A stretch of DNA of 64,000 nucleotides from Cyclonatronum proteinivorum. GTDB lineage: Bacteria > Bacteroidota > Rhodothermia > Balneolales > Cyclonatronaceae. The stretch is taken from NCBI RefSeq assembly GCF_003353065.1, contig NZ_CP027806.1, forward strand, positions 1,815,353-1,879,352, given 5' to 3'. A model generated the notes under the pieces. It worked only from the letters and a program-made list of their open reading frames with translations. It was not told the origin of the DNA and searched no databases. Both the position numbers and the translations under genes were made by a program. Of this stretch, positions 9,691-42,365 are shown one piece after another. Each line of letters begins with the position of its first letter. Positions within the stretch are counted from its first letter, which is position 1.

Positions 9691-9832
9691 TTAACCCGCA
9701 TTATTCACCAAGAAATTTTCGCTGCCTTTACACCACACTATAATTTGGGCTACCGGTGTTTTTGTAGCTAAGGCAAATTTAAACATACACTTAGCAAATA
9801 AATCCTGTTTAATTGTGAATAATGCGGGTTAA
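9691..9832. mobile_element. 142-bp MITE-like element with 18-bp terminal inverted repeats (copy 1)
   Basis: The element begins TTAACCCGCATTATTCAC (9691-9708) and ends with the exact reverse complement (9815-9832). It holds no ORF. The interior is shared with 27887-28023 and 42203-42365, so this is a family. An obvious target-site duplication is not visible. It sits in the gap between the small secreted protein and the metalloprotease; 9528-9690 to its left holds nothing I recognise. Confidence 0.8.
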
Positions 9833-27744: not shown

Positions 27745-27886
27745 AAAAGCAAAAAAAGGTCGGAATTAAAAAATAAGCTTTAGCTTAAATCCGGTTAATG
27801 TCAAAAGGAAAAATATAAGAAGGTTAGGCTTAAGTAAAATACATAATAAGCGGTGTTTTTTTTGGCCTCATTTATCGCAGAAACAA

Positions 27887-28023
27887 GCTTCAACGCCGCC
27901 AGCGGGGAAATTTCGCAGCCTTTGCACCACACTCAAATTTGGGCTACCAGTGTATTTAGCTAAGTCAAATTTAAACAAATATTTAGCAAATAAACCCCGT
28001 TTAATTGTGAATAATGCGGGTTA
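27887..28023. repeat. MITE-like repeat, copy 2, at the cut end of the sensor paralogue
   Basis: The right end GTGAATAATGCGGGTTA matches copy 1. The interior has an inverted repeat AAATTTG (27935-27941) / CAAATTT (27966-27972). The left end is not the terminal repeat of copy 1 but a GCTTCAACGCCGCCAGCGGG sequence shared with copy 3. Its last bases encode the final residues (TRIIHN, stop) of the truncated sensor. Confidence 0.8.
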
Positions 28024-42163: not shown

Positions 42164-42202
42164 TGCTGGTTTAGGTCAGTTACGCTGGCACATGGATTTT
42201 CC

Positions 42203-42365
42203 GCTTCAACGCCGCCAGCGGGGAAATTTCACTTCTTGGGAATCGCTTCGCTCGGTGCGCAGCCTTTTCACCACACCCAAATTTGGGCTACAAGTGTTTT
42301 TCGTTAAGTCCAATTTAAACTAATATTTAGCAAATTAATCCTGTTTAATTGTGAATAATGCGGGA
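42203..42365. repeat. MITE-like repeat, copy 3
   Basis: Shares the GCTTCAACGCCGCCAGCGGG left end with copy 2 and the GTGAATAATGCGGG right end with copies 1 and 2. It carries 28 additional bases (about 42231-42258) relative to copy 2. Orientation is the same in all three copies. The remainder of 42029-42516 holds nothing else I recognise apart from the hairpin at 42090. Confidence 0.8.

Follow-up and report, generated by a model that had tools for sequence, protein, structure and literature searches.

A repeat family of Cyclonatronum proteinivorum is a MITE, IS1380-type by its ends and target, with a conserved strand-polarised hairpin

Bacterial MITEs (gene-less transposons) with stem-loop transcripts are well described. 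The Correia/NEMIS repeats of Neisseria are MITEs of ~100-200 bp that have terminal inverted repeats (TIRs), target duplications and transcripts with a long stem-loop, and cleavage of this stem-loop by RNase III has been proposed to regulate adjacent mRNAs (PMC2229807). The BOX, RUP and SPRITE repeats of pneumococcus are many-copy structured repeats thought to be MITEs, with BOX being modular (PMC3049150), while the CIR repeat of Caulobacter and Brucella has a phylogenetically conserved RNA fold (PMC2229807). The type II MITEs of Anabaena sp. 90 form stems and have no matching insertion sequence in their own genome (PMC3542288). The IS1380 family is absent from the main text of one review (PMC10969869), and our search of the open-access literature returned no description of the element reported here or of any IS1380-type MITE.

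By description, and as far as the cited parts of these papers go, the nearest comparisons for the element are BOX, NEMIS and CIR. Like Correia/NEMIS, with which it was compared by description rather than by alignment, it is a short MITE with TIRs and target duplications; however, the Correia/NEMIS stems are formed by the two ends pairing with each other, whereas the element has an independent internal hairpin with conserved unequal loops and order-wide compensatory changes, and it starts with CCCG where Correia/NEMIS starts with TA (PMC2229807). The many-copy structured character is shared with BOX, RUP and SPRITE, again by description, but BOX varies in module number (PMC3049150) and the element has a nearly fixed length across an order. 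CIR is likewise a bacterial repeat with a conserved RNA fold, made however of two arms and a GANTC motif (PMC2229807) in place of a single hairpin with other motifs. As with the type II MITEs of Anabaena sp. 90 (PMC3542288), stems form and the host genome showed no matching insertion sequence, but other species proved to have insertion sequences that match the element. REP/BIME sequences with RAYT are short palindromes lacking TIRs and target duplications, so that the element, which has a TIR and YTAR duplications, falls outside this class. Finally, the IS1380-family insertion sequences (PF13701) with CC[CT]G-type ends share with it the terminal repeats (up to 14/14 bases) and the 4-bp YTAR duplication, but theirs are ~1.2-1.8 kb long with a transposase gene, and the hairpin was found in 0 of the 100 loci searched. 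The element is a MITE, IS1380-type by its ends and target, with an unusual conserved and strand-polarised hairpin. We give a probability of about 0.7 to the reading that it is a gene-less MITE of ~226 bp whose hairpin is kept as a single strand and which is mobilised in trans by an IS1380-family transposase; the repeats described below would then be remnants of a transposon of nearly fixed length.

The window that we analysed is a stretch of 64,000 nucleotides, bases 1815353-1879352 of the 4,294,247-base single-contig genome of Cyclonatronum proteinivorum (G000). It contains three copies, whose features are as follows in window coordinates.

9691..9694, no strand: target duplication TTAA, left flank of copy 1 (direct reading)
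9695..9708, plus strand: left TIR of copy 1, CCCGCATTATTCAC
9695..9828, plus strand: copy 1, a 134-bp internal-deletion derivative without the hairpin, reference positions 1-26 being fused to the right half at GAAATTT repeats
9815..9828, plus strand: right TIR of copy 1, GTGAATAATGCGGG
9829..9832, no strand: target duplication TTAA, right flank of copy 1
27886..28020, plus strand: copy 2, left-truncated, starting in the 3′ arm of the hairpin, with the right half and the right TIR (28007-28020) kept and then TTAG
42191..42364, plus strand: copy 3, left-truncated in the hairpin, with the 28-bp insert (GGGAATCGCTTCGCTCGGTGCG...) and the right TIR (42351-42364) kept and then ATAA

Direct reading confirmed the three related repeats that the original prediction had placed in the window, with a likeness far above chance. 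With up to 3 mismatches allowed, a 21-mer of the right end matches the whole genome 95 times forward and 83 times in reverse, some of the 3-mismatch matches being left ends read backwards, against 0 and 0 for the reversed control pattern. The perfect terminal repeat reported for copy 1 is indeed perfect, but its length of 18 bp is made of a 14-bp TIR (CCCGCATTATTCAC) and the TTAA target duplication, which as a palindrome was counted in; the interval 9691-9832 is accordingly copy 1 (9695-9828) with TTAA on each side. Flanks of other copies read CTAA, TTAG, CTAG and the like instead of TTAA. The common orientation of the copies holds for these three and is lost genome-wide, where left-end matches are 52 forward and 45 reverse. 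The AAATTTG/CAAATTT pairing described for the interior is present in the right half, yet it is minor beside the long hairpin that copy 1 is missing.

Genome-wide, the element mostly takes a 226-bp form or a 254-bp form, the latter longer by a 28-bp insert, which is a small hairpin of its own. In ~413 kb (10% of the 4.29-Mb genome) fetched around right- and left-end matches, we found 117 match clusters, full or partial, where the original prediction had asked for further copies; these ~413 kb miss at least one other copy (676550, L157). Counts of loops, duplications and gene orientation were made on 105 of the 117 clusters, leaving aside 12 short or one-ended ones, two of which (830438 and 3834438) are nevertheless 74-bp copies with both ends. 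Among the 86 two-ended copies of the 105, 43 measure 225-229 bp and 22 measure 252-256 bp. The layout is a 14-bp terminal repeat, an imperfect hairpin of ~103 nt that takes up the left half, an AT-rich right half whose length is conserved and whose sequence varies freely, and the second terminal repeat. There is no transposase gene in the element, 226 bp being too short for a PF13701 transposase. The 77 full-length copies have a median identity to the consensus of 92.9% and a median best pairwise identity of 93.8%; judged by this divergence, the family is old and not a fresh burst.

The ends and their flanks carry the marks of transposition. Both 14-bp ends are exact in 60 of the 86 two-ended copies, and 61 of the 86 have identical 4-bp flanks, compared with 0.5% of random places 226 bp apart. 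Perfect duplications occur in 47/60 copies with both ends intact, against 10/16 and 4/10 in the other end states, and 52 of the 61 are YTAR, for which the background is 0.75%. Among relatives, where 35 loci were read (L354 in the wrong orientation for this count, and correctly oriented in alignments A2 and A3), 24 of the 33 two-ended copies have a perfect 4-bp duplication. Consensus ends and target duplications, two of the checks proposed in the original prediction, were thus both found. The transposase would duplicate a 4-bp YTAR target at insertion.

Next we examined how far the element extends beyond this genome. In a nucleotide search, G003, G006, G008 and G009 gave 20-80 matches apiece, most of them covering the left ~147 bases, and 33 of the 35 loci read in relatives are complete elements of 225-228 bp (254 in G002). 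Between species consensuses the left 126 columns are 63-94% identical and the right half 39-75%, while the total length hardly changes. Among 195 related genomes, G000 included, 38 are matched by a covariance model of the left 127 nt, as are 15 of 394 genomes in a sample of the phylum, all of them Balneolales; both surveys used stricter filters, with at most 17 (195 relatives) and 8 (394 genomes) matches listed per genome. Outside G000, 48 of 58 two-ended copies are 225-230 bp, a count from which the duplicate locus L366 was dropped and in which only lengths within the search range could appear, right ends having been sought 150-330 bp, up to 2500 bp or up to 400 bp from the left end according to the locus set.

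We considered an ancestral single-copy RNA gene as a candidate origin and rejected it: among nine low-copy loci (L386-L394) of seven genomes with one or few copies, eight have a right end with the inverted repeat, the weak match L390 being without a recognisable right end, and no host RNA gene was found. As to carriers, one copy compared with PLSDB gave no plasmid match, and one pattern compared with viral contigs gave 0 exact matches. In a tree of 29 left ends, the elements of G000, G001, G002 and G003, which belong to one genus, fall in different parts, and the well-supported branches (8 of 26 inner branches) force at least 4 changes for family f1. Part of this scatter could come from horizontal movement, from old sub-lineages or from misassigned contigs.

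The left half of the element holds a conserved fold. The hairpin of ~103 nt occupies positions 18-120 of the G000 consensus, and the same long hairpin was obtained in 5/5 sequences folded from five genomes, with z-scores of -6.9 to -7.5. Of the 39 pairs that RNAalifold gave on 29 order-wide sequences (alignment A4), 25 have double changes that compensate each other. Paired cells amount to 95.1% (shuffled 80.2%) and the covariation score to 0.452, against 0.177 in shuffled and no more than 0.093 in slid versions, and none of five structure measures was reached in 500 shuffles; these controls leave common ancestry uncorrected, and the 29 sequences on which the structure was tested are also those from which it was drawn up. 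Order-wide, the letters of the internal loops CAAGGCG / AACGC and CGGAA / TGAG rank among the most constant, while the flanking stems change. The suggestion that this might be a structured element is therefore borne out, more strongly than it was put, by a hairpin covarying across an order. Seven loci, each from a different genome, were compared with the Rfam covariance models at E up to 1, and nothing matched at the element. Elsewhere, positions 53-390 of L311 (minus strand), near one copy of the MITE, have a sub-threshold match to the cspA thermoregulator RF01766 (57.1 bits, gathering 78, E 2.6e-12).

Furthermore, the wobble pairs are polarised. The 29 sequences hold 73 G·U cells against 7 A·C; counted per pair, the ratio is 17 against 2 (one-sided sign test, 0.0004), and wobble states private to one genome point weakly in the same direction (12 vs 5). 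Seven species consensuses show, in the hairpin columns only, 227 Watson-Crick pairs, 13 G·U, 2 A·C and 3 other. Stem changes within the G000 copies are 58 G·U and 42 A·C, or 28 and 41 once two lineage-shared pairs are removed. With a bias order-wide and none in single G000 copies, the fold therefore seems to be kept on one strand in spreading lineages rather than in every resident copy. The orientation of 104 copies relative to neighbouring open frames, called by a simple longest-frame rule, is random (28, 28, 26 and 22), so that no fixed cis-regulatory role is apparent. A recurrent inversion switch of the loop was also rejected, the loop having the usual orientation in 77 copies and being inverted in 1, and unrecognised in the other 27 of 105. 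This sole copy with its loop inverted between the arms, among the 78 with a recognised loop, is G000:C1:969750-969975 (L005, L311).

That changes in one arm are matched in the other suggests that the element benefits from the fold as such, and the polarity indicates that selection probably acts on it in single-stranded form, most likely as RNA. We accordingly propose, from covariation and wobble polarity, that spreading lineages may retain the hairpin as a left-to-right single strand that would most likely be RNA. What this strand does is a matter of speculation: a folded transcript might aid the persistence of the element, for example if its processing softened the harm of insertions in transcribed spacers, a thought that we place beside the RNase III proposal for NEMIS (PMC2229807), or else its near-invariant internal loops might bind a host factor. 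Of such speculative roles, one that helps the element itself to persist would fit best. A bolder picture, which we hold tentatively, is that of a selfish non-coding RNA travelling as a DNA transposon: the real 'gene' of the element would be the ~103-nt structured RNA with its two conserved internal-loop motifs, aiding its own spread or survival and moving among the lineages of one order, with IS1380 transposases borrowed and the terminal repeats adapted to whichever subgroup is available (ATTATTCAC, ATTTCTCAC and ATATCTCAC types).

The main rival to the RNA reading is a role of the hairpin as DNA, where a cruciform, or single-stranded DNA at the replication fork, would recruit or position the transposase or a host factor and so raise transposition with no RNA involved. 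We regard this as unlikely though a serious contender. Selection apparently acts on spreading lineages while inserted copies decay, and gene orientation is random, both of which fit a role in movement; furthermore, the narrow 225-230 bp of copies outside G000, despite a freely varying right half, is as would be expected for a DNA complex of fixed geometry. A cruciform, however, uses both strands equally, and the wobble count of 73:7 favours one, an objection that single-stranded DNA folded from one strand escapes. Hairpin-less derivatives with intact target duplications also exist, which speaks against a need for the hairpin in movement, though it was possibly deleted after insertion.

A hairpin with no function at all is improbable. 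Palindromes are corrected by arm-to-arm template switching, and such switching during replication could produce compensatory changes without selection by correcting one arm from the other; the inverted loop of copy 969750 is as expected from an exchange between arms. Yet such correction should erase unequal loops, and the loops of the element (CAAGGCG opposite AACGC, GGAA opposite TGA) are among the least variable letters order-wide. Arm correction, moreover, yields no strand bias and leaves the constant length of the unpaired right half unexplained. 

The other part of our preferred reading concerns the transposase. An IS1380-family transposase acting in trans would recognise ends such as CC[CT]G.ATT[AT][TC]TCA[CT]. 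In the same order, L204 reads CTAG, CCTGCATTTCTCAC...GTGAGAAATGCAGG, CTAG around a 512-residue open frame of the IS1380 family, and its CCTGCATTTCTCAC is common to the MITE L375. Two further IS1380-family elements of this order, L205 and L206, carry CCCGGATTATTCAT, which is found at the left end of the MITE L377, at the ends of L206 and L240 and at the left end of L205. The terminal repeat of the element has three inner types, ATTTCTCAC and ATATCTCAC (listed for L367, L375, L386 and L392, and for L368 and L372, respectively) and ATTATTCAC in the G000 copies; ATTTCTCAC, and ATTATTCAT close to ATTATTCAC, occur also in IS1380 elements of the order. Scanning species genomes with an alignment of these transposases gave 80 loci, non-independent since several copies each come from Methylobacter, Phaeodactylibacter and Microvirga genomes. 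Their ends were found by scoring identical flanks and not the YTAR motif, 27 of the 80 having no pair above threshold, and 36 have CC-starting ends with a perfect YTAR duplication; 12 of these 36 have one end that agrees with the TIR of the element in 12 or more of 14 bases. For L273, from a Leptolyngbyaceae genome, the left end agrees in 14/14. Some of the best end matches are imperfect in other respects, L206 and L240 being just ~1.2 kb and without matching flanks.

A transposase with matching terminal repeats, as the original prediction had sought, was thus found in IS1380 elements of other species and in none of G000. A search with the matching subgroup (alignment A1) returned nothing in G000 and, among ten other genomes of the family, several of them incomplete, a single distant match in G008. 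As resident sources we rejected the six IS1380-like copies of G000 (PF13701), which have other ends (CCTNAATCCGTGA), and four PF13546/PF01609 groups with the unrelated ends CTCAACTTTCGCAC, CTGGAGTTTGGCT, ACCTGAGTTCGA and CACAGCTGTCC; a fifth such group (L178-L180) showed no clear ends on comparison, and the single L186 was left out of the end comparison. Nor was the hairpin found inside insertion sequences in 100 of the 114 loci of the IS1380 search (all but L221, L222 and L299-L310), where seven weak matches appeared, one of E 0.01 beside the L208 gene and six of E 0.05-0.2 at or near the ends of insertion sequences. The element encodes no PF13701 transposase, the mark of IS1380 membership, and hence is IS1380-type solely by its ends and target: on these features it is a non-autonomous, IS1380-type MITE, with no partner found in G000. 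The family therefore looks stranded in that genome, where copies would be decaying.

Movement by another transposase that targets YTAR, of the IS5 or IS701 type, is more improbable still than a hairpin without function. Transposases of both types do target YTAR, which by itself is not specific to IS1380, and the search of G000 covered PF13701, PF13546 and PF01609; against this, the four PF13546/PF01609 groups of G000 with readable ends differ from the element, and IS1380 elements match it in ends and target alike.

The question of the left ends can be addressed with the full-length element at hand. The original prediction distinguished two kinds of left end, and copies 2 and 3 do both start near the same sequence, but this supposed second end is the interior of the full element, on the 3′ side of the hairpin. 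Among 15 right-end-only copies (16 before 3285554, which keeps its left end, was excluded), 14 break in the hairpin, at differing places within reference positions 56-98, one of them at an inserted insertion sequence (385404); their 150-bp upstream flanks share just two matches, of 13 and 11 bases. In copy 1 position 26 is joined to the right half with the hairpin deleted, and copy 1424000 has a similar deletion. Read from these alignments, the left-end differences of the window are truncations and deletions associated with the hairpin. That the element has two alternative left ends, or moves without a transposase, is very improbable indeed, since the supposed start sequence lies inside full-length copies (77 aligned), the 5′ breakpoints differ, the flanks are unrelated and the two-ended copies have target duplications. 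We also looked for an autonomous element among left-end-only copies, and the ten examined gave no convincing right end within 1.5 kb.

The phrase "MITE with modular ends" therefore stands in its first half, the element being present in many copies, coding for nothing, having TIRs and 4-bp target duplications and sharing its ends with insertion sequences elsewhere, and falls in its second; movement "by another route" finds no support, the terminal repeats and target duplications being consistent with ordinary DDE transposition. The one internal modularity that we observed is the 28-bp hairpin insert at a single fixed place. Many G000 copies carry this insert just past the outer stem, as do copies in G002 and G001 (cited for L316, L365, L396, L397 and copy 3 of the window), and L365 (G051) has a similar sequence, reversed, near the right end, as if it were an independent module.

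Two other kinds of rearrangement were observed. Deletion derivatives of ~74 and 145-146 bp (G000:C1:323001, 830438, 2884252, 3227984, 3834438 and L157) have the left TIR fused directly to the interior, apparently joined at repeated TTCAC, and several retain target duplications. At five G000 loci (L169-L173, near 326 kb, 384 kb, 487 kb, 1.60 Mb and 3.70 Mb) a CTGGAGTTTGGCT-ended insertion sequence (PF13546/PF01609) sits in or beside small stem-loops, with a flanking duplication of 19 bp that covers the whole stem-loop in L173 and of merely 4 and 6 bp in L174 and L198. The flanks in L169 and L171 are the two halves of one MITE hairpin, matching in rare arm variants, which suggests an insertion into the loop of a MITE and a later exchange between both copies.

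Stem-forming MITEs are common, and whether their folds matter or merely follow from inverted repeats is usually unclear. Here the fold combines order-wide compensatory changes, near-invariant loops and a one-strand polarity with a bias that is missing in the G000 residents, which makes a function as RNA directly testable. Furthermore, the link between this repeat family and IS1380 transposases with a YTAR target makes a concrete transposition assay possible.
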